A model generated the notes under the pieces. The model ran no database searches, was not told where the DNA came from, and worked only from the letters and a program-made list of their open reading frames with translations. Both the position numbers and the translations under genes were made by a program. A stretch of 64,000 nt of DNA from Nocardioides marmoriginsengisoli (GTDB taxonomy: Bacteria > Actinomycetota > Actinomycetes > Propionibacteriales > Nocardioidaceae): assembly GCF_003725695.1 (NCBI RefSeq), contig NZ_RJSE01000003.1, positions 62,001 through 126,000 on the forward strand. Reading direction: 5' to 3'. Below are positions 216 to 16,143 of the stretch, piece by piece (position 1 is the first letter of the stretch; each line of letters begins with the position of its first letter).

Positions 216-1976
216 TCAAGCCCCCTTTCCCGGGAAGAGCTGCAGGTACAGCGTCGTGATCACCGAGTTCACGAAGAAGGTGAGCAGGAAGGTGATCACC
301 ACGGACTGGTTCACCGACTCACCGACACCCTTGGGGCCGGGTGCCGTGTTGAGCCCGCGGTAGCAGGCGACCACCCCGGCGATGAAGCCGAAGATCACCG
401 CCTTGATCGCTCCGACCCAGAGGTCCTGGAGCTGTGCCAGCGCGGTGAAGCTGGACAGGTAGGCGCCGGGAGTGCCGTCCTGGACGATCACGTTGAAGAA
501 GTAGCCGCCGAGGACGCCGACCACCGCGACGAGCCCGTTGAGCAGTACGGCGGCGACGACGCAGGCCAGGGTCCGCGGTACCACCAGCTGTTGGACCGGG
601 GAGAGCCCGACCACCCTCATCGCGGCGATCTCGTCGCGGATCGTCCTCGAGCCGAGGTCGGCGCAGATCGCCGCGCCTCCGGCTCCGGCGATCACCAGAC
701 AGGTCACGATCGGAGCTGCCTGCTGGACCACGGCGAGGACGCTGGCCGCACCGGTGAAGGACTGCGCGCCGACCTGGACGGTCAGGGTGCCGAGCTGCAG
801 CGCGATCACCGCGCCGAACGGGATCGCGATCAGGATCGCGGGCAGCCAGGAGACGCTGACCACGAACCAGAACTGCTCCAGCGCCTCGCGGGCAGCGAAC
901 GGGCGTCTGACCCCCATCCGCAGAGTGTCGAGCCCGAGCGCGTACAAGTCCCCCGTCGCCTGGAGCGCCCGGGTGGCGAGGTGCTGACCCGGGATTGCGG
1001 CGACCCGGTCTCGGTCGTCGTCCTCGGCGACGTACAACGGAGCCGTCCCCGCGGCGACCCGCTCGCGGTGACGGACCGCCCCGGCCCGGCCCGCGCCGGA
1101 ACGCGGCATCAGCTGGCGTGGCAGCACCTCGATCGACCGTGCGGCCGAGCTCATCAACGCCACGCCGCCCGGGTACTCGGGTTCGGCCAGCAGGTCGCGG
1201 CGGCCGTGGTCGGCCTCCTCGCTCATCCCGATCGGGCCGTCCGGGTCACCGCTCATGAACTGGGAGACCACCGGGTGGTCGGTGAGCAGGAACTCCTCGC
1301 GCGGGCCGAACATCACCAGCTCGCGCAGGTACAGCATGCCGAGGTTGTCGGGGAGCGTGCGGGAGAGCTCGATGTTGTGGGTGACCACCAGCATCGTGGC
1401 GTCAGTGGCGGCGTTCACCTCGGCGAGCAGCTGCGCCAGGTTGGAGGTGCGCACCGGGTCGAGGCCGGAGTCCGGCTCGTCCACCAGGATGATCTCGGGA
1501 TCGGTGATCAGCGACCGGGCCAGTCCGGCACGCTTCTTCATGCCGCCGGAGATCTCGGCCGGAACCTTGTGCTCCTGCCCGATCAGGCCGACCAGGTCGA
1601 GCTTCTCCAGCGCCCGCTTGCGGATCTGGTGCTCCTTGAGCCGGGTGTGCTTGCGCAGCGGGAAGGCTACGTTCTCGTAGACGCTCATCGAGCCGAAGAG
1701 GGCACCGTCCTGGAAGAGCACGCCGAACTTCTTCCGGAGCTCCAGGCGCTGGGCCTCGTTCGCCGCGACCATGTCGACACCGTCGACCAGGATGCTGCCC
1801 TGCTCGGGTTCGACGAGGCCGATGATCGACTTGAGGAAGACCGACTTGCCGGTGCCCGACGGTCCGAGCAGCGCGGTGATCTCCCCCGCCGGCAAGGTCA
1901 GCGACACGTCGTGCCAGATGTTCTGACGCCCGTAGCTCTTGGTCAGCCCGCTGACTTCGACGGTTCCGCCCATCAC
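216..1976 (-). CDS. Mce-type ABC importer: ATPase (MceG/MlaF-like) fused to a YrbE/MlaE permease
   Basis: This 586-residue protein joins two parts that are normally separate. Residues 1-250 form an ABC ATPase with Walker A GPSGTGKS (38-45), signature SGGMKKRAG (from 143), Walker B IILVDEPDSGLD (162-173) and H-loop His200. A charged tail to about residue 340 resembles the C-terminal extension of MceG proteins. Residues 345-586 are a MlaE permease with several hydrophobic segments. I see no plausible in-frame start just before the permease part (its first Met is inside the domain), so the fusion looks real unless a frameshift hides two genes. It would power lipid import across the envelope. Start: GTG 1976 or ATG 1973, behind a GGGAGA ribosome site. 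The second permease follows after one base. Confidence 0.85.
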   Translation of the reverse strand: MMGGTVEVSGLTKSYGRQNIWHDVSLTLPAGEITALLGPSGTGKSVFLKSIIGLVEPEQGSILVDGVDMVAANEAQRLELRKKFGVLFQDGALFGSMSVYENVAFPLRKHTRLKEHQIRKRALEKLDLVGLIGQEHKVPAEISGGMKKRAGLARSLITDPEIILVDEPDSGLDPVRTSNLAQLLAEVNAATDATMLVVTHNIELSRTLPDNLGMLYLRELVMFGPREEFLLTDHPVVSQFMSGDPDGPIGMSEEADHGRRDLLAEPEYPGGVALMSSAARSIEVLPRQLMPRSGAGRAGAVRHRERVAAGTAPLYVAEDDDRDRVAAIPGQHLATRALQATGDLYALGLDTLRMGVRRPFAAREALEQFWFVVSVSWLPAILIAIPFGAVIALQLGTLTVQVGAQSFTGAASVLAVVQQAAPIVTCLVIAGAGGAAICADLGSRTIRDEIAAMRVVGLSPVQQLVVPRTLACVVAAVLLNGLVAVVGVLGGYFFNVIVQDGTPGAYLSSFTALAQLQDLWVGAIKAVIFGFIAGVVACYRGLNTAPGPKGVGESVNQSVVITFLLTFFVNSVITTLYLQLFPGKGA

Positions 1977-2368
1977 GGTTCTCCCTCAGTTGGTGTGCCT
2001 CGGTGTTCCGGCAACCTAGGGAGGACGTGGGTGATCGAGGCAAGGGCGATCGAGCTGGGCGGAGCGCTGTTACCTCTTCGTGATCTGAAGTTGTGAGTGC
2101 GATAACAACTCCGTCGTACGACGGCCGCGGCGGGCTGATTCAGGGCATCCGTCGGGCGCACGAACCGACGAGAGGTCGGGACGATCGGCGAACCAGACCG
2201 CAGACGTCGCATTCTTGTTACGCGGGTTACAAATTCCGCTCGTCGGCGAGCCGAATCTCCTTGTTTTTGGGGCTTCTCTCTGGACTACGGCTCGATCCCT
2301 GGGGCTGACTCAGCCAGGTGACGCGCCTCACAAGAGGCGCCGAATCCATCTCAGGGAGAGGGAAGACT
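1977..2368. promoter_or_regulatory. Divergent control region between the Mce operon and the secreted-protein cassette
   Basis: No credible gene was found in these 392 bases. They separate the leftward importer operon from the rightward secreted-protein genes, so promoters for both must lie here. Visible elements are a perfect 14-base palindrome CCGTCGTACGACGG at 2111-2124, spaced TGTTA/TAACA half-sites around 2069-2107, and a TTGTTAC word at 2215-2221 followed by GGTTAC. TTGTTAC occurs again at 5751-5757, upstream of the first PucR gene. The region is less GC-rich than its flanks. Which protein binds is unknown; the nearby PucR-type regulators are the obvious candidates. Confidence 0.45.
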
Positions 2369-3115
2369 ATGCAACTCAAGAAGCACTCCAGGAAGGCCGT
2401 TCTCGCCGCCGTGGCAATCGCCGGCATCGGCGCGGTCGCCGGTCCGGCGCTGGCGACCGGGTCGTCGTACACGGTCGCGGTCGGTGGCAGCACCGTGGCA
2501 GCGACGCACACTGCCAGCGCGGTCGCCGACCCGATCGTGACCTCGCCGGCGACGACCCGGCGGGTCGAGTTCAAGGTCAAGAACAACGCCGGCACCATCA
2601 TCAAGATGGGCTGCAACGGCGTGTCCGGCACGGGCATCGTCAACTCCGGCTCCGGCATCACCGACATCGGCGAGATCCGCACCTCGGCCTGGACGTCGTG
2701 CGCAGGTCCGGGCGGCATCCTGAACGTGACCCAGGTCGGCACCTGGAAGATCCACGGCACCGGTGCGGTGACCCCGGCTCAGACAGACGTGATCGCCGGG
2801 CACGTGGAGAACGTCCGCGCGCACGTCGAGTCGCCGACCGGCATCTGCAAGTTCGATGTGGCAGGCAACCCGACCGGGACCATCCCCGGGTCGGCGCGCG
2901 GCACCGTGGACGAGGCCACCCAGAAGCTCTCCGTCCTGGAGAGCGGATTCGTCGGCAACCTCTACGTGTACAACGTGGTCGGCTGCCTCGGGCAGATCCA
3001 GAGCGGCAATGTGGCCGACATGGTCGGGTACACCACGTCCACCGGGACCGTGCTGCCCGCGAACCTGTCCCTGACCGTGCCCGACGGCCCGGTCAACGGG
3101 ATCAGCACGCCGTGA
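2369..3115 (+). CDS. Secreted four-cysteine protein of unknown function, copy 1
   Basis: I do not recognise a named family. The 248-residue product has a Sec signal peptide (MQLKKHSRKA, a hydrophobic stretch, ALA cleavage near residue 29). The mature part starts TGSSYTVAVGG and looks beta-rich, without membrane segments. Four cysteines, in contexts MGC, TSC, GIC and VGC, are all kept in the paralogue at 4996-5736, which suggests two disulfide bonds. About half of the residues match between the copies, including PATTRRVEF and CLGQ. The ATG at 2369 is preferred over an upstream in-frame start because AGGGAGAGGGA lies just before it. The gene heads a four-gene secreted cassette that diverges from the Mce importer, so an envelope or lipid-shuttle role is possible but unproven. 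Confidence 0.8.
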   Translation: MQLKKHSRKAVLAAVAIAGIGAVAGPALATGSSYTVAVGGSTVAATHTASAVADPIVTSPATTRRVEFKVKNNAGTIIKMGCNGVSGTGIVNSGSGITDIGEIRTSAWTSCAGPGGILNVTQVGTWKIHGTGAVTPAQTDVIAGHVENVRAHVESPTGICKFDVAGNPTGTIPGSARGTVDEATQKLSVLESGFVGNLYVYNVVGCLGQIQSGNVADMVGYTTSTGTVLPANLSLTVPDGPVNGISTP

Positions 3116-3120
3116 CCCAC

Positions 3121-3159
3121 CGGGTGGACGGGCGGCGCCGGTCGTCGCCCGTCCACCCG
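3121..3159 (+). terminator. Perfect 14-bp hairpin between the first two cassette genes
   Basis: CGGGTGGACGGGCG at 3121-3134 pairs exactly with CGCCCGTCCACCCG at 3146-3159 across an 11-base loop. It begins six bases after the stop codon of the first gene and ends 35 bases before the next start. No T-tract follows, so it may be a partial terminator or an mRNA-stabilising 3' end that lets the first gene be expressed above the others. Confidence 0.7.
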
Positions 3160-3194
3160 TCGCCGTCCCCATTCGCCTGTCCGAAGGAGAAGAC

Positions 3195-3845
3195 ATGAAG
3201 ACCTACGCTCCCCCGAGCGCCCGGCGTCGCCGACGCCTCGGCGCGGTCGCCGCAGCCGCGGCGCTCGCCCTCACTCCTGTCGCCGCGGCCAACGCCGCGA
3301 CGATCATCAGCCTGGACCACGACGTCTCGGGCAGCACGTACATCAAGAGCACCAACAGCACGGTCCGGCTCGGACCGGGAACCTTGCACACCGACCTGGA
3401 CATCGACACCGGCGACTTCACCGGGTCGCTCACGCTGCCGGGCACCAGGACGAGGTTCGCCGCGCTGGGCCTCGTCCCGCTCGAGGCGAACATCGACTTC
3501 ATCCCGGCCGGCCCGGTGACCGGGCACATCAACCTGGCCGGCGAGAACGCCGAGGTCAGCGCCACCGCGAAGTTCTACGTGAAGCTCTCGAACATCAAGG
3601 CGATCGGCCTGCTCCCGCTCTGGTGGTTCGGCGGCTCCACCTGCCGCACCGTCAATCCGGTCAGCATCCCGGCGAATACGCCCCCCGGTGAAGGCTTCGA
3701 CCTGATCAACGGCGGCCGGTTGACGGGGACCTACACGATCGGCCAGTTCCAGAACTGCGGGCTGCTCACGCCGTTCGTCAACCTGCTGGTCCCCGGGGCC
3801 GGCAACACCGTCACCCTGCAGGCGACCAACGGCCGGGTGAGCTGA
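3195..3845 (+). CDS. Secreted protein of unknown function, cassette gene 2
   Basis: The 216-residue product has an arginine-rich N-terminus, a hydrophobic stretch and a likely cleavage after ANA near residue 34. There is no lipobox or later membrane anchor, so it should be released or envelope-associated. The mature part is rich in Gly, Thr and Val, as expected of a beta-sandwich or barrel. Its C-terminal third (STC, then LTGTYTIGQFQNC and GAGNTVTLQ) matches the end of the next gene's product (STC, LTGTLDIPAFANC, GPGNPVTAR), so the two are homologous and share two cysteines. The start is set by GAAGGAGA eight bases before the ATG. Lipid binding would fit a beta-rich fold next to an Mce importer, but this is inference only. 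Confidence 0.8.
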   Translation: MKTYAPPSARRRRRLGAVAAAAALALTPVAAANAATIISLDHDVSGSTYIKSTNSTVRLGPGTLHTDLDIDTGDFTGSLTLPGTRTRFAALGLVPLEANIDFIPAGPVTGHINLAGENAEVSATAKFYVKLSNIKAIGLLPLWWFGGSTCRTVNPVSIPANTPPGEGFDLINGGRLTGTYTIGQFQNCGLLTPFVNLLVPGAGNTVTLQATNGRVS

Positions 3846-3863
3846 AGCCCCACTTGCCAGGAC

Positions 3864-3906
3864 GTGACCTCTGGCCTGTCTGCCTCACGGACGGGCCAGG
3901 GGTCAC
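3864..3906 (+). terminator. 17-bp hairpin between cassette genes 2 and 3
   Basis: GTGACCTCTGGCCTGTC (3864-3880) pairs with GACGGGCCAGGGGTCAC (3890-3906) over a nine-base loop, with two G-U pairs. It sits just upstream of the ribosome site of the third gene (AAGGAG at 3914-3919). It is the second strong hairpin inside the cassette and may be an attenuating or processing element. Confidence 0.65.
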
Positions 3907-3930
3907 CCAGCACCAAGGAGAACTGAAATC

Positions 3931-4980
3931 GTGACATCGCACCGAGCCCCCCGCAGCCGGCGACGCCGCCGGTTGCTCGCTTGCGCCCTCGCCGTCGCTG
4001 CGTTGCCGTTGCTACCGGCGGCCAGCAACGCCGACGGGACACCACCCTGGCCAGGGTTGCCGTACCTGACCTACGATCCGGACCGGCCCGGGAGCATGGG
4101 TGCCGAGTACTACTGGGGCGGCGTTGCGCAGACGGGCATGGCAGGGTCCGTGCGTGCCAAGCAATGGGCGCGGATCCCGTTGGCCATGCTTGCTATCAAC
4201 GCGGTCGTCGACCCCGAGGCCGGCACGGACGCTGCTGGCCGGATTGCAATCCCGTACTCTGCGCTGGCCTTCTTCGTGTCGCCTCAGGGCTCTGAGCATC
4301 CCTATGGGGAGTCACCGCTAATTCCGGTACGGACGGTCGCATTCGGCACCATCCCGGTCGAGGCGACGCTGCAACTGGTCCAACGCCGCGACGACCAGAA
4401 TGTGCCGGTACCGATCGCCATCGACGCCAAGGACGGCATCCCCGCGACCGGGACAGGAAGTTTCGCTGATCCCGCGGTACTCGATGCTCAGGTGGGCCTC
4501 CGGGTTCGTAGCCTCAAGGTCGACGGAGTAGACCTGCGCCTGAGGTCGACCTGTGCGCCCCGAACCTGGGCACGGCTCCAACTCACCTCGAAGTACTGGG
4601 AGGGACCAGGCACCAACGGCACCGAGCAGATGGAGGCCTTCGATACCGACCACAGCTTCATGGGAGGACCCGGCGGGACACTCACCGGCACCCTCGACAT
4701 CCCCGCCTTCGCCAACTGCCGGACGGCCGCAGGCGATGACGTCTCCCGAATCCTCACCGCCACCATCGCTGGTCCGGGGAACCCAGTCACGGCACGTCTC
4801 GGCATCGCGGTCTGCTTCACCACGGGTCCGGACTGGATGATCCGTCCACCCGGTCCTGGTGACACGACCCCCGAGAAGGCGAACTGCCTCGGTGACGGCC
4901 GTGTCCAGCACCCGATCCCGGCGAATCCCAAGATCGTCACGGTTCCCGACCCGCTCCCGTTCCCGAACCACGCTCCCTAA
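3931..4980 (+). CDS. Secreted protein of unknown function, cassette gene 3
   Basis: The 349-residue product starts at GTG 3931, with AAGGAG 11 bases upstream. It has a signal peptide (RSRRRRRLLACALAVAALP, cleavage near SNA, residue 34) and no membrane segment in the mature part. The last 150 residues share cysteine-containing motifs with the preceding gene: STC near 187, LTGT then FANC, then GPGN-VT. The N-terminal half is an extension not seen in that shorter relative. The C-terminus is proline-rich (DPLPFPNHAP). Codon use is somewhat less biased than in neighbouring genes. No enzymatic motif was recognised. It is probably co-expressed with its neighbours; only 15 bases separate it from the fourth gene. 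Confidence 0.75.
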   Translation: MTSHRAPRSRRRRRLLACALAVAALPLLPAASNADGTPPWPGLPYLTYDPDRPGSMGAEYYWGGVAQTGMAGSVRAKQWARIPLAMLAINAVVDPEAGTDAAGRIAIPYSALAFFVSPQGSEHPYGESPLIPVRTVAFGTIPVEATLQLVQRRDDQNVPVPIAIDAKDGIPATGTGSFADPAVLDAQVGLRVRSLKVDGVDLRLRSTCAPRTWARLQLTSKYWEGPGTNGTEQMEAFDTDHSFMGGPGGTLTGTLDIPAFANCRTAAGDDVSRILTATIAGPGNPVTARLGIAVCFTTGPDWMIRPPGPGDTTPEKANCLGDGRVQHPIPANPKIVTVPDPLPFPNHAP

Positions 4981-4995
4981 CCGGAAGGCCCCACC

Positions 4996-5736
4996 ATGCA
5001 GGTCAGGATGCTCACGACAAGGTCCATCGCGGCCACATCGGCGCTCTGCATCGCCGCGATCGTCGGGCCAGCGCAGGCGACCGGCTCGGCGTACACGGTC
5101 GCCGTCGGCGGGGACACTGCACCCGGATCCCATCCGGCCACGCTGACTGCCGACCCGATCGTGTCTACGCCAGCAACGACGCGGCGGGTGGAGTTCCGGG
5201 TGCGAAACAAGGCCGGCACCGTGGTGAGGTGGGGGTGTACGTCAATCACGGGCAGCGCCATTGCCCACGCCGGAACCGTGCCGGACGTCCTCGACTTGGT
5301 CAGCTCTTCGTGGCAGGGCTGCACCGGACCTTTCGGTGCGCTTCCACCCAGCCAGGTCGGCACCTGGACGTTCCGGAGCACCAGCCCGGTCACTCCTTCC
5401 TCAACCGACGTGGTCAGCGGCCAGATCGACACTGTCCGCCTGCATTTCGAATCCCCGACGGGAGGCTGCAGGTTCGACCTGGCGGGCGACCCCGCAGGGA
5501 CCGTGCCGGGCACGCTTCCCGCCACCTTCGACGAGAGCACCCAAAAGCTCGCGATCAAGGAGGGAGGCTTCGCCGGCAACCTCTACGTCTCCGGAGTCTG
5601 GGGCTGCCTCGGGCAGGTTCAGAACGGCAACCCGGCCGACATCGTCGGATTCGCCACCCCTGCAGGACCGATCCTCCCGGCAACCTTCAGCGTGAGCGTC
5701 CCCGGCGGCCCGATCAATCTGGTCAGCAGCCCCTGA
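4996..5736 (+). CDS. Secreted four-cysteine protein of unknown function, copy 2
   Basis: This is a paralogue of the first cassette gene: 246 residues, signal peptide with cleavage near AQA (residue 28), and mature start TGSAYTVAVGG. All four cysteines are conserved (WGC, QGC, GGC, WGC), as are TPATTRRVEF, FAGNLYV and CLGQ. The pair flanks the two other secreted genes, so the cassette reads A-B-B'-A', which points to duplication within the locus. The start follows GGAAGG after a 15-base gap from gene 3. No function is known. Disulfide-stabilised beta-rich secreted proteins next to a lipid importer could act outside the membrane as carriers or adhesins, but nothing in the sequence decides this. 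Confidence 0.78.
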   Translation: MQVRMLTTRSIAATSALCIAAIVGPAQATGSAYTVAVGGDTAPGSHPATLTADPIVSTPATTRRVEFRVRNKAGTVVRWGCTSITGSAIAHAGTVPDVLDLVSSSWQGCTGPFGALPPSQVGTWTFRSTSPVTPSSTDVVSGQIDTVRLHFESPTGGCRFDLAGDPAGTVPGTLPATFDESTQKLAIKEGGFAGNLYVSGVWGCLGQVQNGNPADIVGFATPAGPILPATFSVSVPGGPINLVSSP

Positions 5737-6064
5737 CCATCCCGCGCGTTTTGTTACCGCCCTCACAAGTTCGTCAGCAATCTTCATCCAGCAAGCCCGA
5801 TCGAGCACCAATCACTGGACGTGAACGCACCCCGGCCAGCAAGGTCGGACCAACGGCGCCGACCACCGGCGCCCGTCCCTGGGGAGGGAGAAGCATGGGC
5901 TCGGTCAGGACCACCGGTGCACGACGCACGCTCGGCCTCGACTCTGCTCAGCTCCCCCTCCGTCTCCACCAGTCCTCCGGACATCTACTCCCGCCACTCC
6001 CTGGCCGGATGTCCGGTTCAGGGCACGTGCTCATCCCCCCGGCGAGCACGGTGCCCGACCCCTC

Positions 6065-6112
6065 GGTCCGCAGGGCGCCTCGTGGGATCTGCCCCTAGGC
6101 GCCCTGCGGACC
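6065..6112 (+). terminator. Perfect 16-bp hairpin, first of a tandem pair
   Basis: GGTCCGCAGGGCGCCT (6065-6080) is followed after 16 bases by its exact reverse complement (6097-6112). With no T-tract it could be an actinobacterial terminator for the secreted cassette or part of an attenuator for the PucR gene. Confidence 0.7.
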
Positions 6113-6115
6113 ACC

Positions 6116-6149
6116 CCTGCGAAGGGGGCTCTCCGGAGCCCCTCGCAGG
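6116..6149 (+). terminator. Second hairpin with a UNCG-type tetraloop
   Basis: CCTGCGA (6116-6122) pairs with TCGCAGG (6143-6149), and GGGGCTC (6125-6131) pairs with GAGCCCC (6136-6142), leaving a TCCG loop closed by C-G. This is a UNCG-family tetraloop, which is unusually stable in RNA. The right arm ends about 10-22 bases before the likely start of the next gene, so translation control is also conceivable. Confidence 0.7.
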
Positions 6150-6171
6150 AGTTCCGAACCTGCTCGACGCG

Positions 6172-7329
6172 ATGCGGTCGGCCGCCGACCCGCTGGGCGG
6201 CCGGATCGCCCGGGTGATCCAGGAACGGGTCCAGGTCTTCGCCGGCCCGGTCACCGGCAAGCGGCACCGGCTGATCGCGCTGGCCACCCGCTCGGCGATC
6301 GAGGAGTTCTTCGACCAGCTCACCGGCCGCGGACCGAGCGGTCGCCGGGTCGACGAGCTGTTCGCGAAGATGGGCCACGGCGAGGCCACCGACGGCCACA
6401 CCCTGGCGCCGATCCTGGAAGCTCTCGAGCACGCCCGGCTGCTCGCCTGGGACGAGGTCCGGGCGCTGGTCGTGCGCCTCGACGGCGCCGCCGCGGTGCT
6501 GAGCGGCTTGCACGACGAGATCGAGCGGCTGCACACGAGGCTGCGTACCCAGGTCGAGCGCGGCTACGCAGCCGGGGAGCGCGCCGTCGCCCGGAGCCAC
6601 GGCGGGCCGCGGCGCGAGCTCCTCCGCGGGCTGGTCGAAGGCGCCGACCGGGAGACGCTGGTCGCACTCGCACTCGCTGCCGGAAGCGACCTGCCGGCGG
6701 CGGTGGTGCTGGCCTCGATCGAGGGCGAGCCCGACCTGACCGGCGTGCCGGGAATCCTCTCCGACCTCGTCGACGGCGAGCTGCTGGCGCTGGCAGCTGC
6801 GCCCGACCGGGATCGGCTGATCGAGACGCTCACCGCAGACCTCGGCGTACGACGAGCAGCCGTGAGCTGGTCGGTGGCGACGGCGCACGCCGACGACGCG
6901 CGCCGCTGGGTGGGCCGGGCGCTCGAGCTCGCCGACCAGGGCGTGCTCCTGGACGAGCGGGTCCTCGACTGCGACCAGCACCGGACCCTGCTCTGGCTGT
7001 ACGCCGAGCCGCACCTGCGTCGCCAGCTCTGCCAGGAGCTGCTCGGCCCGCTCCTCGCCGAGAGCCCGCACTCGCGGCAGATCCTGGCCGAGACGCTCTC
7101 GGTCTGGCTGGAGATGCGGGCCAGTGCCCCGGCGATCGCGGCCCGGCTGGACGTGCACCCGCAGACCATCCGGTACCGCTGGAAGCGGATCAACGAGCTA
7201 CTCGGCGACGCCCTCCGCGAACCGGAGCTGATCGTGCAGCTGACGATGCTGCTCAAGGCGAGCGTGCCGCTCTGGCGGACCGGGGATCAGAGCGACTTCC
7301 CCCGCCAGCCGGCCCGGGACCGTGGGTGA
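6172..7329 (+). CDS. PucR/CdaR-family helix-turn-helix regulator, copy 1
   Basis: A DNA-binding regulator of about 385 residues. The C-terminal 60 residues hold the PucR helix-turn-helix (SAPAIAARLDVHPQTIRYRW). The central part resembles the paralogue at 7442-8674, with the shared block ELFAKMGHGEATD near residue 65. Proteins of this type are common beside Mce operons in actinobacteria and probably control the adjacent importer and secreted genes. The start is unsure. Homology with the paralogue begins slightly upstream (LLD), where CTG 6160 lies eight bases after AGGAG; GTG 6082 is also in frame but sits inside a hairpin loop and has poor codon bias. I list ATG 6172 as the conservative choice. 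Confidence 0.8.
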   Translation: MRSAADPLGGRIARVIQERVQVFAGPVTGKRHRLIALATRSAIEEFFDQLTGRGPSGRRVDELFAKMGHGEATDGHTLAPILEALEHARLLAWDEVRALVVRLDGAAAVLSGLHDEIERLHTRLRTQVERGYAAGERAVARSHGGPRRELLRGLVEGADRETLVALALAAGSDLPAAVVLASIEGEPDLTGVPGILSDLVDGELLALAAAPDRDRLIETLTADLGVRRAAVSWSVATAHADDARRWVGRALELADQGVLLDERVLDCDQHRTLLWLYAEPHLRRQLCQELLGPLLAESPHSRQILAETLSVWLEMRASAPAIAARLDVHPQTIRYRWKRINELLGDALREPELIVQLTMLLKASVPLWRTGDQSDFPRQPARDRG

Positions 7330-7364
7330 CCGGACTTCCGTCCGATTGTCCGCGATCCGCAGAG

Positions 7365-7373
7365 TTATCCACA
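7365..7373 (+). promoter_or_regulatory. Perfect DnaA-box sequence
   Basis: TTATCCACA, the classical nine-base DnaA box, lies in the 112-base gap between the two PucR genes, about 40 bases upstream of the -10-like TAGTCT at 7412-7417. It is isolated, so an origin is not indicated. It may be a chance match or a single regulatory or titration site. Confidence 0.4.
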
Positions 7374-7411
7374 TTTTCGTCCGCGGCCCCCATCGCCGGT
7401 CCGCGCGCAAA

Positions 7412-7417
7412 TAGTCT
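7412..7417 (+). promoter_or_regulatory. Putative -10 box for the second PucR gene
   Basis: TAGTCT fits the TAnnnT pattern and lies 24 bases before the GTG at 7442, in a locally AT-rich stretch. It would give a short leader with the GGGGGAGG ribosome site. Confidence 0.4.
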
Positions 7418-7441
7418 GAACGGCACGCCTACTCGGGGGAG

Positions 7442-8674
7442 GTGACCTTGGCGACGACGACCGACAGCGAAGCCCGCTACGCCGACCTGCTCGACCGGCT
7501 TCGCGAGGTCTCCGGCTTCGCCGAGAACCTTGCCCGCCGGGTCCAGGCCGAGGTCGGGCCCTTCACCGGTCCGGTCGACGGCCGCCGGAACAGGCTGATC
7601 CGGATGGCGACAGAAGGTGCCGTCCGGCTCTTCTTCGACGTCGCCGCCGGCCGGGAGCACACCTCGCGCCGGGTCGACGACCTGTTCGCGAAGATGGGCC
7701 ACGGCGAGGCCACCGACGAGCACGACCTCAGCCCGATGCTGGCCGCGCTCGACCTCGCGGCGCAGATGTCCTGGGACCTGGTCCGTTCGCTCGCCGTCGA
7801 GCACGCTGCCAGTGCGGCAGCTCTCGACCGGCTGGGCGAGGCGATCGACACCGTCTTCGCGCGGCTGACCGAGCAGGTCAAGCGCGGGCACCAGACCGCC
7901 CTCCACCAGCTCGCCCGGAAGCCGCACCGGCGCCGTCACGACCTCGCCGAAGCCCTCCTCACCGGCACCGACCCGTACCTGGCCTCGATCGCGGCCGAGT
8001 GGACCGTTCCGACCACGGTGGTGGTGCTGGCTCTCGAAGTGACCCCCGCAGGCACCGACGAAGTGCCACCGTGGCGGGACTCCCCCGAGCTACTGGTCTG
8101 CTCGACCGGCCTGAGCGACCCGGGACCGATGCTGGTGACGACTCCGGAACATCTCGCGGCGGCGCTCGACCTTCTCGACCAGGACCGGTCGGTCACCCGG
8201 ATCGCGACCAGCTGGCCGGTGAACCTGGCGAGCACACCGGCCGCGAGCCTCTGGACCCGGCGCGCGATCGACCTCGCCCGACGCGGGGTGATCCCGACCG
8301 CCCGGGTGATCGAGTGCCTGCGCCACCGCACCCAGCTCTGGCTGCACGCGGAGCCGTACATGCGTCAGCAGCTCTGCCAGGAGCTGCTCGCTCCGCTGCT
8401 CGCCGAGACCCCGAACTCGCGCGAGATCCTCTCCGAGACCCTGCTCACCTGGCTGGAGACCCGGGACAGCGCTCCCGCGATCGCGGCCCGGCTGGACGTG
8501 CACCCGCAGACCGTCCGGTACCGCTGGAAGCGGATCAACGAGATCTTCGGCGAGGCGCTGCACGACCCTGAGCTGGTCGTCCAGCTGACGATGCTGCTCA
8601 AAGCCAGCGTGCCGTTGTGGAAGGCAGGCGACCAGAGCGACTTCGAGCGCTTCCACACCGAGGGCGAGGAATGA
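7442..8674 (+). CDS. PucR/CdaR-family helix-turn-helix regulator, copy 2
   Basis: A 410-residue paralogue of the preceding regulator with the same order: an N-terminal helical sensing region, the shared block DLFAKMGHGEATD (near residue 80), and a C-terminal helix-turn-helix (SAPAIAARLDVHPQTVRYRW). The tails of both copies are nearly identical (LTMLLKASVPLW), consistent with recent tandem duplication and overlapping targets. GTG 7442 sits directly against GGGGGAGG; TTG 7448 has better spacing and may be the true start. Its stop overlaps the start of the degenerate P-type ATPase gene (ATGA), so the two are translationally coupled. The likely targets are the adjacent importer and secreted cassette. 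The ligand is unknown. Confidence 0.87.
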   Translation: MTLATTTDSEARYADLLDRLREVSGFAENLARRVQAEVGPFTGPVDGRRNRLIRMATEGAVRLFFDVAAGREHTSRRVDDLFAKMGHGEATDEHDLSPMLAALDLAAQMSWDLVRSLAVEHAASAAALDRLGEAIDTVFARLTEQVKRGHQTALHQLARKPHRRRHDLAEALLTGTDPYLASIAAEWTVPTTVVVLALEVTPAGTDEVPPWRDSPELLVCSTGLSDPGPMLVTTPEHLAAALDLLDQDRSVTRIATSWPVNLASTPAASLWTRRAIDLARRGVIPTARVIECLRHRTQLWLHAEPYMRQQLCQELLAPLLAETPNSREILSETLLTWLETRDSAPAIAARLDVHPQTVRYRWKRINEIFGEALHDPELVVQLTMLLKASVPLWKAGDQSDFERFHTEGEE

Positions 8675-9807
8675 GCCGCAGAGCTACGGGCCGGCTCGCG
8701 ATCGCGGGGGTCGGGGTGGCGGTGCTGGCGGGAGCCATCCAGGTGCTCCTCGGCGCCGGCACCGACCGCGCGACTCAGGTCACGATCGCGACCTTCCTCG
8801 CTCTCTCCCCGGCCCCGATGCTGCTTGCCCCGGCCCTCGCCCGCGCTGTCGCCGTACGACGGAGCCGGGGCCTCGGGGTGCGCGCCTGGGGTTCCGCGGC
8901 GCTCGTCCGAGCCGCCCGCGTGGACCTCCTGGTGCTGGACAAGGCCGGGACGGTGACGACCGGCGCGCTCCGAGTGGTCTCGGTCGACCCGCTCGATCAG
9001 GCCGACGACCGCAACCTGCGCTGGTTCGCGGGTGCGCTCTGCCATGCGTTGCCGACCCCGGTCGGTCGTGCCGTCTCGCGGCTCGCCGCCGGCGGTCGCA
9101 GCACGGAGGTCGAGGAGGTCCCCGGGATCGGCGTCGTCGGCTCGGTGGACCGGCACCCGGTTCGGGTCGGGGCACCGGCGTGGTTGGAGCTCCCGGCGCC
9201 ACCGAGCATCGGTCACGTGCTCGGAGTCGAGGTGGACGGCCGCCCGTTCGGCACCATCACCGTCGAGGACACGCTCCGCGCCGATGCCGCGCACGACGTC
9301 CGCGGACTGCACCGGCTGGACCTGCAGACTGTCCTGGTCTCCGACGACACCCCGGCGCGGACCGAGGCCGCCGCCCGGGCCGCCGGGGTCGGGCGATGGC
9401 ACGGCGAGCTCGACGGAGCCGCCCAGGCGGCTCAGGTCCGCGACCTTCGGCAGTACGGCCGTTCGGTCGCCGTCGTGGCTCCGTACCGCGTGGACGGACC
9501 GCTCACCGTGGCCGACTTGGCGGTCTGCGACAGCTGGCCCGGCCCGCCGCCCCCGTACGGCGTCGCGCTGGAGGACCTCGACGTCGCGCGGCTCGGCCCG
9601 GTGATCGCGCACGCCCGCCGTGCGATCGCCCGAGCCCGTCACGGCACCCTGGTCGGCTCGATCGGCGCGGCGCTGACCGGGATCGCGGCCGCGTCCGGAG
9701 CCCTCGACCTCCCGGTGAGCGTCGGTCTCGCTACCGCGAACCTGGCGCTGGTCGCAGGCGCCGTCCTGCGTCCAGGCGGAGCGGTCCGGAGTGCGACACC
9801 TGTGTAA
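8671..9807 (+). CDS. Degenerate P-type ATPase-like protein (probable pseudoenzyme)
   Basis: The 378-residue product aligns in layout with the catalytic half of heavy-metal P-type ATPases but lacks key residues. The membrane segment that should carry CPC reads ALSPAPM (44-50). The phosphorylation motif DKTGT is DKAGTVTTG (90-98), keeping the Asp but losing the essential Thr. The hinge GDGxND is absent, replaced by VVAPYRVDG. The N-terminal membrane helices and actuator domain are missing, while two hydrophobic segments remain at the C-terminus. It is therefore unlikely to pump ions. The frame is intact with strong codon bias, so it is maintained rather than decaying. ATG 8671 overlaps the PucR stop, implying coupled synthesis and a possible sensory or partner role. 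Confidence 0.75.
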   Translation: MSRRATGRLAIAGVGVAVLAGAIQVLLGAGTDRATQVTIATFLALSPAPMLLAPALARAVAVRRSRGLGVRAWGSAALVRAARVDLLVLDKAGTVTTGALRVVSVDPLDQADDRNLRWFAGALCHALPTPVGRAVSRLAAGGRSTEVEEVPGIGVVGSVDRHPVRVGAPAWLELPAPPSIGHVLGVEVDGRPFGTITVEDTLRADAAHDVRGLHRLDLQTVLVSDDTPARTEAAARAAGVGRWHGELDGAAQAAQVRDLRQYGRSVAVVAPYRVDGPLTVADLAVCDSWPGPPPPYGVALEDLDVARLGPVIAHARRAIARARHGTLVGSIGAALTGIAAASGALDLPVSVGLATANLALVAGAVLRPGGAVRSATPV

Positions 9808-10642: not shown

Positions 10643-11923
10643 TCAGCGCTCGAGGATCGCGACGACGCCCTGGCCACCCGCCGCGCAGACCGAGATCAGC
10701 GCGCGGCCCGAGCCCTTCTCGGCGAGCAGCTTGGCGGCGTTGGCGACGATCCGGCCGCCGGTCGCGGCGAACGGGTGCCCGGCCGCGAGCGAGGAACCCT
10801 TGACGTTCAGCTTCGACCGGTCGATCGAACCGAGCGGCGCGTCCAGGCCCAGGCGCTCCTTGCAGAACACCGGGTCCTCCCACGACGCCAGCGTCGAGAG
10901 CACCTGGGAGGCGAACGCCTCGTGGATCTCGTAGAAGTCGAAGTCCTGCAGGGTCAGGCCGGCACGCGCGAGCATCCGCGGGACGGCGTACGCCGGAGCC
11001 ATCAGCAGACCCTCGCCACCGTGCACGAAGTCGACCGCCGCGGTCTCGTAGTCGGCCAGGAAGGCGAGCGGCTCCAGGCCGTGCTCCTTGGCCCAGTCCT
11101 CCGAGCTGAGCAGCACCGCGGAGGCGCCGTCGGTCAGCGGGGTCGAGTTGGCGGCCGTCATGGTCGCGGCCTCACCCTTGCCGAAGACCGGCTTCAGGGT
11201 GGCGAGCTTCTCCAGCTTGGAGTCGGCACGCAGGTTGTTGTCCCGCTCCAGACCGTTGAACGGCGTGATCAGGTCGTCCTGCCAGCCGGCCTCGTAGGCA
11301 GCGGCCAGGTTGTGGTGAGAGTTCACCGCGAGCTCGTCCTGCGCCTCGCGGGTGATCTGCCACTCCAGCGCGGTCAGCGCCTGGTGCTCGCCCATCGACA
11401 GGCCGGTCCGGGGCTCGCCGTTGGACGGGATCGCCAGGCTGATGTCGCCGGGCCGGATCGAGGCGAGGACGGCGAGGCGGTCCTTGTTGGTCCGGGCGTT
11501 GTTGAGCTTGATCAGCTTCTTGCGGAGCTTCTCGCCGATCGCGATCGGGGCGTCGGAGGTGGTGTCGGTGCCACCGCCGATGCCGGAGTCGATCTGGCCG
11601 AGGGCGATCTTGTTGGCGACGTAGATGATCGCCTGGAGGCCGGTGCCGCAGGCCTGCTGGAGGTCGACGGCCGGGGTCTCCGCAGCGAGGCGGGTGCTCA
11701 GCACGGCCTCCCGGGTCAGGTTGAAGTCCCGGGAGTGCTTGAGCACGGCGCCGGCGGCGACCTCGCCCAGCCGCTCGCCCTCCAGGTTGAACCGCGCGAC
11801 CAGGCCGTCGAGGGTGGCGGTCAGCATCTCCTGGTTCGACGCGGATGCGTAGACGGTGTTCGAGCGAGCGAACGGAATCCGGTTGCCACCGAGGATGGCG
11901 ACGCGACGAGTCTTGGCCTGCAT
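10643..11923 (-). CDS. fadA2: Acetyl-CoA C-acetyltransferase (thiolase), FadA2/FadI-like
   Basis: A 426-residue thiolase that cleaves or forms 3-ketoacyl-CoA. The nucleophilic Cys lies in LQQACGTGLQAI near residue 91. The C-terminal catalytic motifs are EIHEAFA (His near 342) and CAAGGQG (Cys near 416), with the GHPFAATGGR loop before. It diverges from fabG4- and htdX-like genes, the order known from M. tuberculosis Rv0241c-Rv0243, so it probably works with them on fatty acyl chains. The length suits the FadI/trifunctional-beta type rather than the ~390-residue biosynthetic type. A TTCTCC sequence before the ATG gives an AGGAG-like ribosome site on this strand. Whether it is degradative or synthetic is open. 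Confidence 0.9.
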   Translation of the reverse strand: MQAKTRRVAILGGNRIPFARSNTVYASASNQEMLTATLDGLVARFNLEGERLGEVAAGAVLKHSRDFNLTREAVLSTRLAAETPAVDLQQACGTGLQAIIYVANKIALGQIDSGIGGGTDTTSDAPIAIGEKLRKKLIKLNNARTNKDRLAVLASIRPGDISLAIPSNGEPRTGLSMGEHQALTALEWQITREAQDELAVNSHHNLAAAYEAGWQDDLITPFNGLERDNNLRADSKLEKLATLKPVFGKGEAATMTAANSTPLTDGASAVLLSSEDWAKEHGLEPLAFLADYETAAVDFVHGGEGLLMAPAYAVPRMLARAGLTLQDFDFYEIHEAFASQVLSTLASWEDPVFCKERLGLDAPLGSIDRSKLNVKGSSLAAGHPFAATGGRIVANAAKLLAEKGSGRALISVCAAGGQGVVAILER

Positions 11924-12102
11924 GGGGTTCTCCTGATCGATGCGAAGGTCTCACAATACTGGCGCGTAACATCGGGAATTGAAACGCAGTGAGGGCCACG
12001 TCACGAATTTTGGACTCCGAGTTACACCTGAAGTTACATTTGCTGCGCTGACCGGTTCAACGCCCGTGGCAGCGCCCCGATTCCCTGATGCGAGGAACCC
12101 CG
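11924..12102. promoter_or_regulatory. Divergent promoter region, thiolase / fabG4
   Basis: This AT-richer 179-base gap drives two divergent fatty-acid units. AGTTACA occurs twice in direct repeat with a 12-base period (12020-12026 and 12032-12038), and GTAAC occurs again near 11967. Such repeats suggest a repressor site; the TetR gene 2 kb to the left is one candidate. Confidence 0.4.
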
Positions 12103-13440
12103 ATGAGCGACCGTTACCAGTCCTTCAGCTCGAGCCCGATCGGCCAGATGTTCGTCAAGAACCTCGGCCTGCCGAGCCCGGAGAAGCTCGACCGCTACAC
12201 CGAGGGCGCTCCCCTCGTCGACGGCACCGTCCTGGTCGGCGGCGCGGGCCGGCTGACCGACGTCCTGACGGCGACCCTGGACAACCTGGAGATCGCCAGC
12301 ACCCGGACCGCTGCCGAGGGTGAGAAGTACAAGGGCCTGGTCTTCGACGCCACCGGCATCACCGACCCCGAGGGCCTGATCGCCCTCCAGGAGTTCTTCA
12401 CCCCGCTGCTGCGCAGCCTCAAGGGCTGCGCCCGGGTGGTCGTCCTCGGTACCAACCCGACCCAGACCGACTCGACCGACGAGCGGATCGCCCAGCGTGC
12501 TCTCGAGGGCTTCACCCGCTCGCTCGGCAAGGAGATCGGCAAGGGCAGCACCGTGAACCTGGTGTACGTCGCCCCCGGCTCCGAGGGCACCGTCGAGTCC
12601 ACCCTCGCGTTCTTCCTCTCCCCCAAGTCGGCCTACGTCTCGGGCCAGGTCGCCCGGCTCGGCCTCACCGGCACCAAGAAGGCGGCCAAGGTCGCCGACC
12701 AGGCCAAGCCGCTGGCCGGCAAGGTCGCGATCGTCACCGGTGCCTCCCGCGGCATCGGCGAGCAGATCGCCCGGGTCCTGCACCGCGACGGCGCCACCGT
12801 CCTCGGCATCGACGTGCCGCAGGCGGCCAGCGAGCTGCAGGCGCTGATGAAGGAGCTCGACGGCGACACCCTGACTCTCGACATCACCGGCAAGGACGCG
12901 CCTCAGCGGATCGCGCACCACGTCAAGGAGAAGCACGGCGGCGTCGACATCGTGGTGCACAACGCCGGCATCACCCGCGACAAGAAGCTGGCGAACATGG
13001 GCGAGGACCGCTGGTCCTCCGTGATCGCGGTCAACCTCTCCGCGCCGGAGCGGATCACCCGTGAGCTGCTCGACCAGGGCCTGATCAACAAGAACGGCCG
13101 GATCGTCGGCGTCTCCTCCATCGCCGGGATCGCTGGGAACGTCGGCCAGACCAACTACGCCGCCTCCAAGGCCGGCGTCATCGGGTTCGTCGACGCGGTC
13201 GCGCCGGAGCTGAAGAACGACATCACCATCAACGCGGTCGCGCCGGGCTTCATCATCACCGCGATGACGGCCGCCGTCCCGTTCGCCACTCGTGAGGTCG
13301 GCCAGCGGATGAACGCGATGGCCCAGGGCGGTCTGCCGGTCGACGTCGCCGAGGCGATCGCCTGGTACGCCTCCCCCGGTTCGTCCGCGGTCAACGGCAA
13401 CGTCGTCCGGGTCTGCGGCCAGATGATGCTGGGCGCCTGA
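12103..13440 (+). CDS. fabG4: High-molecular-weight 3-oxoacyl-ACP/CoA reductase, FabG4-like
   Basis: A 445-residue SDR with two domains. Residues 1-200 form a flavodoxin-like N-terminal domain without an intact nucleotide loop. Residues 205-445 are the active Rossmann fold with TGASRGIG (near 216) and NNAG-type HNAGITRD. The catalytic Ser lies in VSSIAG, and the Tyr and Lys in NYAASKAG. FabG4 proteins reduce 3-ketoacyl-CoA with NADH. ATG 12103 is preferred over 12088 because GAGGAA precedes it. The htdX-like gene starts two bases after its stop, so reductase and hydratase are made together, and the divergent thiolase completes a three-step fatty acyl set. Confidence 0.92.
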   Translation: MSDRYQSFSSSPIGQMFVKNLGLPSPEKLDRYTEGAPLVDGTVLVGGAGRLTDVLTATLDNLEIASTRTAAEGEKYKGLVFDATGITDPEGLIALQEFFTPLLRSLKGCARVVVLGTNPTQTDSTDERIAQRALEGFTRSLGKEIGKGSTVNLVYVAPGSEGTVESTLAFFLSPKSAYVSGQVARLGLTGTKKAAKVADQAKPLAGKVAIVTGASRGIGEQIARVLHRDGATVLGIDVPQAASELQALMKELDGDTLTLDITGKDAPQRIAHHVKEKHGGVDIVVHNAGITRDKKLANMGEDRWSSVIAVNLSAPERITRELLDQGLINKNGRIVGVSSIAGIAGNVGQTNYAASKAGVIGFVDAVAPELKNDITINAVAPGFIITAMTAAVPFATREVGQRMNAMAQGGLPVDVAEAIAWYASPGSSAVNGNVVRVCGQMMLGA

Positions 13441-13442
13441 GC

Positions 13443-14324
13443 ATGACCGAGCGGATCATCGAAGGCGCCGGATCGGCGCTGCCGTCCATGCTGAAGGCGG
13501 CGCTGCCCGTCGTCCCGGGAGTGAACCTGCTCCCGGGCGTCGCCAAGAAGGGCGGCGACCTGCCCGACCTGCGACTGACCCGCAAGGACGTCACGATCGA
13601 CCCTGCCCACGTGGCGACGTACCGGGAGGTCTGCGGCTTCGAGCCCGGCCAGTACCTGCCGGTCACCTACCCGCACATGCTCGCCTTCCGGCTGCACATG
13701 GGGATCATGACCGACAGCAGCTTCCCGTACGCCGCCATCGGCAGCGTGCACCTGCGCAACTCGGTCACCCAGCACCGTTCGATCGCGCCGACCGAGCTCC
13801 TCGACGTCTCGGCGACCGCGACCAACAAGCGGGCGCACAGCAAGGGCACGATGTTCGACTTCGTCACCACCGTCACCAGCGGCGACGAACTGGTCTGGGA
13901 GTCGGTGTCGACGTACCTGCGTCCGGGTCGCGGCGACAAGGACGCGCAGCCCGAGGGCGCACCGTTCGAGGTCATCGAGGGCAACGGGACCCAGTGGAAG
14001 CTCGGCGCCGACCTGGGCCGCCGCTTCGCCGCGGTCTCGGGCGACTACAACCCGATCCACCTCTACCCGCTGACCGCCAAGGCGTTCGGGTTCCCGAGCC
14101 AGATCGCGCACGGCATCTGGACCAAGGCGCGCTGCGTCGCTGCGATGGAGAGCCGACTGCCCGACGCGGTGACGATCGAGGTCGAGTTCCGCAAGCCGGT
14201 CCTGCTGCCGACCAAGGTCGCCTTCGGCTCGCGGATCGTCGACGACGGACCGGTGCAGGGTCTGGACTTCTCGATGACAAACCCGAAGAACGGCAAGCCG
14301 CACGTGGTGGGCCGCACCCGCTGA
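13443..14324 (+). CDS. htdX: MaoC-like 3-hydroxyacyl dehydratase, HtdX-like
   Basis: A 293-residue double-hotdog protein. The hydratase-2 motif is in the C-terminal half: VSGDYNPIHLYPLTAKAFGF around residues 197-216, with the catalytic Asp and His, then AHGIW. The N-terminal hotdog lacks this motif, as in other MaoC double domains. It would interconvert enoyl- and 3-hydroxyacyl-CoA or ACP. The gene is tightly coupled to the FabG4-like reductase, matching the mycobacterial htdX-fabG4 pair. It converges on tesB with eight bases between the stops, where a small hairpin overlaps both ends. Confidence 0.9.
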   Translation: MTERIIEGAGSALPSMLKAALPVVPGVNLLPGVAKKGGDLPDLRLTRKDVTIDPAHVATYREVCGFEPGQYLPVTYPHMLAFRLHMGIMTDSSFPYAAIGSVHLRNSVTQHRSIAPTELLDVSATATNKRAHSKGTMFDFVTTVTSGDELVWESVSTYLRPGRGDKDAQPEGAPFEVIEGNGTQWKLGADLGRRFAAVSGDYNPIHLYPLTAKAFGFPSQIAHGIWTKARCVAAMESRLPDAVTIEVEFRKPVLLPTKVAFGSRIVDDGPVQGLDFSMTNPKNGKPHVVGRTR

Positions 14325-14338
14325 CACCCGGGTCAGCG
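14319..14338. terminator. Short hairpin at convergent htdX/tesB ends
   Basis: CGCTGAC (14319-14325) pairs with GTCAGCG (14332-14338) over a six-base loop. It overlaps both stop codons and can serve both strands. Confidence 0.5.
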
Positions 14339-15196
14339 CACCCGGATCAGGCCCTCCTGGGCGACGCTGGCCACCAGCCGGCCGTCCGCGGTGAAGACCC
14401 GCGCGAAGGTCAGGCCGCGTCCCCCGGACGCGGCCGGGCTGTGCTGGTCGTAGAGCCACCACTCGTCGGCGCGGAACGGCCGGTGGAACCAGATCGTGTG
14501 GTCCAGCGACGCCGCCTGCACGTTCGGCGAGGAGATGTAGACGCCGTGCGGCACCAGTGCGGCGCCGAGCAGCGTCATGTCGCTGGCGTAGGTGAACGCC
14601 GCCGTGTGCTGGAGCGGCGAGTCGGGCAGGTCGCCGTTCACCCGGATCCAGAGCCGGGCCCGGGCCGGCTCGAGGTCGTGGGGCAGCTCGCCGCCCGGCC
14701 GCGAGTTGCCGGCGTAGCGCACCTCGAGGGCGGCCCACTCCCGCTCCCACTCGCTGGTGTCGCCGTCCTCCTCGCTGCGGGCGTCGAACAGGTCGTTCAG
14801 CGACGGGCAGTCCTCCGGAGCCGGTACGTCGGGCATCACGTCCTGGTGCTCGAGTCCGTCCTCGGGGACCTGGAAGTTCAGCGTCATCCCGAAGATCGGC
14901 CGGCCGTGCTGGCGGGCCACCACCCGCCGGGTGGCGAAGGTGCGGCCGTCGCGAACGTTGTCCACGTCGTACACGATCGGGACCGCGGTGTCGCCGGGCC
15001 GGACGAAGTAGGAGTGCAGCGAGTGCACGACGTACTTCTCGGCCACGGTCCGGGTGGCGGCGACCAGCGCGTGCGCGGCCACCTGTCCCCCGAAGACGCG
15101 CTGCAGCTCGGTCTTCGGCTGCTTCCCGCGGAAGAGGTTGTCCTCGATCATCTCCAGGTCGAGGAGGTCGATCAGCTCGGCTACGGAGGCGGGCAT
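14333..15196 (-). CDS. tesB: Acyl-CoA thioesterase II
   Basis: A 287-residue double-hotdog thioesterase that hydrolyses acyl-CoA to free acid and CoA. Family landmarks include VFGGQVAAHAL near residue 35, VHSLHSYFVRPGD near 57, and the C-terminal LDHTIWFHRPFRADEWW, with the Asp typical of TesB and the acid/Gln/Thr active site. The length fits TesB (about 285). ATG 15196 overlaps the stop of the upstream PAC2 gene by one base, so the two are co-translated. It lies beside fatty-acid enzymes, suggesting control of acyl-CoA pools. Confidence 0.92.
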   Translation of the reverse strand: MPASVAELIDLLDLEMIEDNLFRGKQPKTELQRVFGGQVAAHALVAATRTVAEKYVVHSLHSYFVRPGDTAVPIVYDVDNVRDGRTFATRRVVARQHGRPIFGMTLNFQVPEDGLEHQDVMPDVPAPEDCPSLNDLFDARSEEDGDTSEWEREWAALEVRYAGNSRPGGELPHDLEPARARLWIRVNGDLPDSPLQHTAAFTYASDMTLLGAALVPHGVYISSPNVQAASLDHTIWFHRPFRADEWWLYDQHSPAASGGRGLTFARVFTADGRLVASVAQEGLIRVR

Positions 15197-16143
15197 CAGG
15201 GAGTGTCCTCCTCGGTCTGGTCGAGTCCGGCCAGGAACTGCTCGAACTGGGCCCCGAGCTCGTCGCCGGTCGGCAGCTCACCGGTCTCGCGCAACGCGTC
15301 GCCCAGGGCGTCGGTGCCGTCGAGCAGGTTCGGTCCCCCGGTGTGGAACGCGTCGTACTGCTGCTCCAGCCCCTCGACGACCGAGCGCACCTCGTCGGAG
15401 TCGGCGACCTGGCTGCCGATCTCGGCACGCCGCTCGGTCGCGGCCTGCTCCAGCTCGGAGGTGTCCCAGCTCAGGCCGGTCACCGCGGCCACCTGGCGGA
15501 GCATCGCCGCGGCCGCCTCCGGGTACGGGAACTGCGCCACGTAGTGCGGGATGTGCGCGACGAAGCCGGTGGCGTCGTGACCCCACTCGCCGAGCCTGAC
15601 CTCGAGCAGCGACTGCGCGCTGGACGGGATCCGGATCTCGCCGGCCCACACGTTGGTGCTGATCAGCAGCCGCTTCGCGGTGGCGTGGTTCGTCAGCTGC
15701 ACCGGCCGGGTGTGCGGTACCGCCATCGGCACCGACCCCAGCGAGACCACCAGACGGACGTCGAAGTGCTCGATCACCTGGCGCACCGCTTCGGCGAAGC
15801 CCTCCCAGCGGGAGTCCGGCTCGGGACCGCTCAGCAGCAGGAACGGCGTGTTCGCGTCGTCGTGCAGCAGCCGTACGACGAGCCGCGGCGCGTCGTAGTC
15901 GGTGTAGTGGTCCTCGAAGAAGGTCATCGGTGGGCGCCGCGCGCGGTAGTCGTAGAACTCGTCGACCTCGAAGCTGGCCACCACCCGGCTGGACGAGTTC
16001 TCCAGCAGGTCACCGGACGCGAGCCCGGACGCGTTCCCGGCATCCAGGAAGCCCTCGAGGGCGACGATCATGACCGGCCCGTCGCTGAGTCCCTCGAGCT
16101 CGGGGACGTCATCGACGATGTGCACGAAGCGTGCCTGGGTCAC
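15196..16143 (-). CDS. PAC2-family protein (proteasome-assembly-chaperone-like)
   Basis: A 315-residue soluble protein of the PAC2 family, which is widespread in actinobacteria and related to archaeal and eukaryotic proteasome chaperones; its bacterial role is not established. PAC2 features are VMIVALEGFLDAGNAS near residue 24, the segment FLLLSGPEPDSRW, and GLLWDT-like SWDTSEL near the end of the domain. The C-terminal 60 residues are acidic and probably flexible. It starts at GTG 16143 with AGGAGC upstream. The gene is coupled to tesB downstream. Confidence 0.88.
   Translation of the reverse strand: MTQARFVHIVDDVPELEGLSDGPVMIVALEGFLDAGNASGLASGDLLENSSSRVVASFEVDEFYDYRARRPPMTFFEDHYTDYDAPRLVVRLLHDDANTPFLLLSGPEPDSRWEGFAEAVRQVIEHFDVRLVVSLGSVPMAVPHTRPVQLTNHATAKRLLISTNVWAGEIRIPSSAQSLLEVRLGEWGHDATGFVAHIPHYVAQFPYPEAAAAMLRQVAAVTGLSWDTSELEQAATERRAEIGSQVADSDEVRSVVEGLEQQYDAFHTGGPNLLDGTDALGDALRETGELPTGDELGAQFEQFLAGLDQTEEDTP

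Follow-up and report, generated by a model that had tools for sequence, protein, structure and literature searches.

The region of interest lies in the left part of the window, the 64,000-nucleotide stretch of Nocardioides marmoriginsengisoli DNA that was analysed, where a gene for a P-type-ATPase-derived protein directly follows a gene for a PucR-type regulator. The features of this region are given here in order of position.

216..1976, minus strand: MlaF-MlaE fusion (ATPase plus permease), head of an mce operon (positions 7217-8977 of locus L005, minus 7001)
2091..2108, no strand: operator-like palindrome, located between the mce genes and the secreted-protein genes; two mismatches, PWM score 11.9, third
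2215..2232, no strand: operator-like palindrome in the same gap; two mismatches, PWM score 19.0, best of the 64 kb
2318..3115, plus strand: protein A, predicted to be secreted (N terminus read by eye), without Pfam match
3195..3845, plus strand: protein B, predicted to be secreted (by eye), without Pfam match
3931..4980, plus strand: protein C, predicted to be secreted (by eye), without Pfam match
4996..5736, plus strand: second type-A protein, from open frame and locus comparison
5751..5768, no strand: operator-like palindrome ahead of the PucR-PucR-pseudo-pump run; two mismatches, PWM score 15.6, second
5821..7329, plus strand: second, upstream PucR-type regulator, 51% identical to the partner regulator across the matched stretch
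7442..8674, plus strand: PucR-type regulator with a C-terminal HTH_30 (PF13556, 3.4e-15), the partner gene
8671..8674, plus strand: ATGA overlap of pseudo-pump start and regulator stop, read from the sequence
8671..9807, plus strand: P-type-ATPase-derived pseudoenzyme of 378 amino acids, M3-M4-P-N-P-M5-M6, without actuator domain, from open frame, profiles and predicted model
8806..8817, plus strand: SPAP in M4, where P1B pumps have the CPC metal motif
8938..8952, plus strand: DKAGT, in the place of the DKTGT phosphorylation motif
9145..9171, plus strand: VDRHPVRVG, the family N-domain signature, from family comparison
9466..9510, plus strand: region that holds GDGxND in pumps, motif missing here by sequence comparison

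The mce operon headed by the MlaF-MlaE fusion runs past the left edge of the window, and the secreted proteins encoded at 2318-5736 have relatives at many other module loci. The HTH_30 match of the partner regulator scores 56 bits against a cut-off of 27, and the N-terminal part of this protein has no Pfam match up to an E value of 0.1. The real start of the upstream regulator probably lies further in than its open frame.

The gene at 8671..9807 had been described in a first-pass annotation as an intact gene for a catalytically dead P-type ATPase, coupled to the regulator that precedes it, and the local features on which that description relied are all found in the sequence. The frame is open and intact over 378 codons, its start codon shares four bases with the TGA stop of the regulator gene, and a GC3 of 0.86, computed over 396 codons from an upstream in-frame GTG, agrees with the strong codon bias reported. 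DKAGT replaces DKTGT at amino acids 90-94 and SPAP replaces CPC at amino acids 46-49, GDGxND is absent, and no actuator (TGE) segment is present. A P-type ATPase fold, its P and N domains flanked by paired membrane helices, is seen in the predicted model, and the fold is predicted to be of the P1B type. The HAD superfamily match (PF00702) is narrow, at 27.5 bits against a Pfam gathering score of 26.4, and the NCBIfam P1B ATPase models fall far under their cut-offs (TIGR01525, 104.1 bits against 346.25). As a candidate functional P1B-type ATPase, the protein thus falls short at DKTGT, GDGxND, the actuator domain (PF00122), CPC and the TIGR01525 cut-off; compared with the heavy-metal pumps CopA and ZntA, it also lacks M1-M2 and the HP motif. 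These missing motifs suggest that the protein is catalytically dead.

Conservation of the gene pair was followed through 39 contig loci, 38 of which were kept; L073, from Rhodoferax, was dropped as spurious (54 query residues matched, E 6e-4). In these actinobacterial loci a relative of the window's PucR lies directly upstream of the pseudo-pump gene in 34 of 38 and downstream in three (L061, L062 and L068, judged from open-frame extents), and in the remaining locus, L065, the gene is cut off at the contig end. The 34 loci yield 35 upstream pairs, one locus holding two, and a start codon in the identical 4-base overlap is offered by 30 of these, at the next position by two and at 7-14 bases by three. 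Pairs occur twice in the window's own genome and twice in L055, and the tight link to PucR is seen in Nocardioides, Pimelobacter, Aeromicrobium and Mumia. Homologues and contig loci were selected by short words or by LRWFA/VDRHPVR; the profile searches that gave the whole-genome loci did not require these motifs. The 75 whole-genome loci split cleanly into two classes on five features: GDGxND, TGE and DKTGT are missing from 41 genes, each of which carries DRHPVR and has an adjacent PucR, whereas 34 genes have all three pump motifs (GDGxND in 34/34) and neither DRHPVR (0/34) nor PucR (0/34). A PucR was counted as adjacent when it matched at more than 60 bits on the same strand within a locus of about 4 kb, and the set includes the window itself (L104) and four duplicates (L006/L097, L007/L126, L008/L117 and L009/L134). 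Another 25 loci comprise one pump, which has no PucR, and 24 family members, of which 23 show a clear PucR. DRHPVR is present in 23 of these 24 members (all except G484); G260 has a TGE-like string, and G316 begins at a contig end and has only a 35-bit PucR match, downstream. The contig loci and the genome set overlap in the genomes from which they come, and the two sets are therefore not independent.

The trees of the two partner genes have many groups in common, with the second pair of the window's genome, on contig C2, grouping with L066 and L071 in both, and they disagree for some rows, such as L037 and L072. Partner distances correlate with r 0.63, against a shuffled-label maximum of 0.25, with species relatedness not removed. 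This value was obtained for 35 of 37 rows, after exclusion of the truncated PucR rows L048 and L067, which depressed r to 0.35 when all rows were used. A close PucR (E < 1e-40) is present in five of 78 relatives, and four of these five also carry the pseudo-pump; the fifth, G014, has PucR, mce and secreted-protein genes, and its sole family-profile match is at pump-level score. The corresponding G014 locus, L178, contains a PucR pair with mce and secreted-protein genes and no pseudo-pump within the 20 kb read, and represents a natural control for the contribution of the pseudo-pump. Taken together, we lean somewhat toward the interpretation that the pseudo-pump is a non-transporting, P1B-derived membrane pseudoenzyme that serves as the dedicated partner, and probably as the sensor or anchor, of the coupled PucR, which would bind the palindromes described below.

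Under a different reading, which we consider unlikely, the pseudo-pump belongs to the mce lipid importer as an accessory subunit, for instance an assembly factor or membrane platform, and merely resides in the regulator's operon. At a 60-bit threshold, mce genes are found inside 19 of the 38 contig loci, relatives of secreted proteins A-C in 24, and either type in 29. Both pairs in the window's genome have an mce operon nearby, and the one on C2 is, among that genome's five other mce loci, the closest to that of the window (YrbE 73% identical versus 49-61%), as an accessory subunit might lead one to expect. However, the same genome has six mce loci and only two pseudo-pump family genes, and the linkage to mce is partial while the adjacency of PucR is near-universal. 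Of the nine loci without an mce or secreted-protein gene above 60 bits, eight have PucR adjacent (seven upstream, and L061 downstream), the ninth being the cut-off L065; the regulator, not mce, is therefore the constant partner. By YrbE matches, three of the six mce loci lie on a single contig, C14. Secreted families of the type encoded at 2318-5736, without Pfam match, are repeatedly duplicated beside mce and PucR genes.

The family itself was defined by a homologue search over 5.8 billion proteins, in which the best 8000 candidates by number of shared words were scored. At least 119 homologues matched. The best 109 are P-type-like proteins of short or medium length, and the named ones among them come from Nocardioides, Aeromicrobium and Pimelobacter, whereas the ten weakest (P0110-P0119) are full pumps; PF00122 is listed for none of the 109 and for all ten of the pumps. 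The first-pass annotation had proposed testing whether both DKAGT and the loss of GDGxND are conserved among homologues. The second part is borne out, with GDGxND in 0 of 109 members, and TGE is likewise found in none. DKAGT occurs in only two, as does SPAP, and the CPC place itself is unconserved, so that DKAGT and SPAP were both rejected as family motifs. The proposal of a pseudoenzyme coupled to PucR stands as regards the family-wide loss of motifs and the link to PucR across genera, and fails as regards the conservation of DKAGT. The traits that are conserved are the missing GDGxND, the missing actuator domain and the N-domain signature. Columns with at least 90% identity number 32 of 96 in the N domain, 3 of 36 and 4 of 104 in the P-domain parts, and none or one per membrane segment. 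The phosphorylation and Mg motifs of the P domain, which are hallmarks of pumps, are the parts that have degenerated in the family. Long members, of about 500 amino acids, have additional hydrophobic segments ahead of M3-M4 and no PF00122. We read them as pumps from which the actuator domain was deleted with M1-M2 remaining; the window copy would have lost M1-M2 too. Existing source names for the homologues include HAD hydrolases, cation transport ATPases and Cu+-exporting ATPases, and the pump names are probably wrong for this family.

The residues at the catalytic position bear on whether some reduced enzyme activity is retained, either as a HAD-type phosphatase or as ATP binding combined with partial phosphorylation, by which the regulator or a small molecule would be modified. 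Aspartate is kept at this position in 87 of the 109 members, and the G-x-G segment of the N domain is largely retained. HAD phosphatases spell the motif DxDGT, which is fitted by the DKDGT found in 12 of 109 (exact DKTGT occurs in one). These features would favour residual activity, but in 21 members aspartate is exchanged (E 7, A 7, N 2, Q 2, R 2, S 1) and one has a gap; in a tree built from 40 family members at the fetched loci, it is retained in 34, with four changes by parsimony. The HP-motif histidine, furthermore, is retained in only 27 of 109. In pumps the Mg-binding acids reside in GDGxND, and since this motif is missing from all 109 members, these acids are missing as well. We consider a remaining enzymatic function quite improbable, and continue to favour a non-transporting membrane partner of PucR.

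Selection on the family was estimated by NG86 in seven pairs of close relatives (dS < 0.45), which gave dN/dS values of 0.10-0.45, below 1 as had been anticipated; these pairs do not include the window gene, for which no close relative exists at the DNA level, GC bias makes these values rough, and past the close pairs dN/dS reaches 1.4 and is uninterpretable. The first-pass annotation had allowed that close homologues might be full-length active pumps, which would make this copy a recent pseudogene, and that account is rejected on the absence of pumps from the best 109 matches, on these dN/dS values and on the two-class split of the loci. A decaying, functionless pump remnant is likewise disfavoured, and to our minds scarcely credible, for although the window copy sits on a long branch (1.22 changes per column) and sequence turnover outside the N domain is high, the family has open frames, invariant N-domain residues, dN/dS well below 1 in those pairs, and a tight link to PucR in four named genera.

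A candidate operator for the regulator emerged from an unguided search for exact dyads, in which TTGTCA-N6-TGACAA was found upstream of MlaFE in 10 of 18 regions and upstream of PucR in 8 of 39, some divergent regions being in both lists; in shuffled controls, which preserve base content only, no dyad rose above 2. Allowing at most one mismatch, 86 sites occur in 29 of the 38 loci, and 68 of these sites are no more than 450 bases away from the point where the open frame of an mce, secreted-protein or PucR gene starts. By gene class, 11 of 17 MlaFE genes, 19 of 25 other PucR genes, 34 of 76 secreted-protein genes and only 14 of 35 paired PucR genes have the palindrome within that distance. In L004, two divergent genes for large predicted secreted proteins, RCC1-like by eye (12055-14253, minus strand, and 14313-16394, plus strand), have two palindrome sites (14238 and 14344) in their common upstream region.

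Across the window's family, the exact palindrome occurs in 57 of 341 genomes and the reversed pattern in six. It is present in 52 of 62 verified carriers of the pseudo-pump versus 5 of 279 other genomes (Fisher 3.6e-45, with relatedness ignored and the 279 not each inspected); the ten carriers without an exact palindrome include the window's own genome. Among the matches listed, which cover 15 genomes, 41 of 50 same-contig sites lie less than 20 kb from the pseudo-pump gene, a count that omits sites on other contigs (as in G433 and G143) and the split-contig genomes G316, G430, G440, G442, G455 and G458. In a class sample outside the window's family, the exact palindrome is found in 24 of 305 genomes, and in the class control the reversed pattern occurs in 7 of 335 versus 30 for the true pattern. 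Two genomes from other families of the class, G758 and G781, have four exact palindromes each.

With at most one mismatch, the window's own genome has two sites, each with one mismatch and both at the C2 locus, and no reversed control site. The window contains three sites with two mismatches against 0.41 expected, and three were reached in 1 of 100 shuffles. A PWM trained on other genomes only ranks these three sites first to third, and the fourth-ranked site scores 4.7; in 50 simulated windows the mean best score was 6.2 (with a single value of 21.6), and the third-best never exceeded 8.7. Four sites stand out at the C2 locus, one of them about 225 bases upstream of that pair's PucR gene. The palindrome seems to go with the regulator, since G014 has this type of PucR, mce and secreted-protein genes and the palindrome, and a pump-level match only. 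Co-occurrence, along with the nearly invariant HTH, suggests that PucR may bind the palindrome, and the mce and secreted-protein genes are likely to be its targets.

Verified carriers of the pseudo-pump amount to at least 62 genomes. A profile search at 1e-70 matched 20 of 394 genomes of the class, and by sequence checks 13 of these carry the pseudo-pump family, all 13 in the window's own family, Nocardioidaceae. The other seven (G058, G114, G119, G122, G128, G155 and G907) hold true pumps only, and G907 is the only one of them from outside that family. As a marker, the bare VDRHPVR DNA pattern proved too noisy, with matches in 121 of 391 genomes, many outside the family, and was replaced by the profile searches and sequence checks.

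These observations can be accommodated by a mechanism in which a P1B metal pump would have lost transport and become a membrane pseudoenzyme, made in step with the translationally coupled PucR regulator. The cytoplasmic P/N head, fixed to the membrane by M3-M6, would bind PucR, and a membrane or mce-substrate signal would alter this binding such that the regulator is held or released. Holding or release would in turn change the occupancy of the palindromes, with a PucR dimer binding TTGTCA-N6-TGACAA upstream of its own operon as well as of the mce lipid-import operon and the secreted-protein genes. In this scheme we infer the loss of catalysis, the direct binding, the binder of the palindrome, the signal and the sign of regulation. 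That deletion of the actuator and loss of the Mg and metal motifs turned a pump into the membrane signal subunit of a pseudo-pump/PucR system, controlling mce import and secreted proteins via an 18-bp operator, is in our estimation an evenly balanced proposition.

Several known systems share parts of this arrangement. The family signature DRHPVR sets the pseudo-pumps apart from P1B-type pumps, being missing from the 34 checked. The partner resembles PucR/CdaR-type one-component regulators in its C-terminal HTH_30, and differs from them in lacking an N-terminal Pfam match and in being coupled to a membrane pseudo-pump. The conversion of a transporter into a sensor is a known kind of event; yeast Ssy1 is reported to be a transporter fold turned receptor that controls a transcription factor (PMC12958826). 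The pseudo-pump would be functionally alike as a transporter-derived sensor, although it derives from another transporter superfamily and its proposed output is a bacterial one-component regulator. The presence of an MlaE permease, an ABC ATPase and MCE proteins beside the pair is reminiscent of actinobacterial mce loci. For Nocardioides, passages of an earlier study place an Mkl-type ATPase upstream of mce and describe no pair of PucR and pseudo-pump, the term "P-type" occurring zero times in the main text (PMC1810536). In the openly licensed literature we found no P-type ATPase pseudoenzyme coupled to a bacterial transcription regulator. A dead pump beside one gene switch, often near lipid-import genes, suggests re-use as a membrane-bound signalling partner; with the gene pair, a candidate operator and candidate targets named, it gives a testable way to approach how mce lipid importers are regulated outside mycobacteria.

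Downstream of the pair, window positions 10643-15196 encode a thiolase (by Pfam) followed by what appear by eye to be an SDR reductase, a MaoC-like hydratase and an acyl-CoA thioesterase, an order that we take to recall the mycobacterial fadA2-fabG4-htdX cluster.
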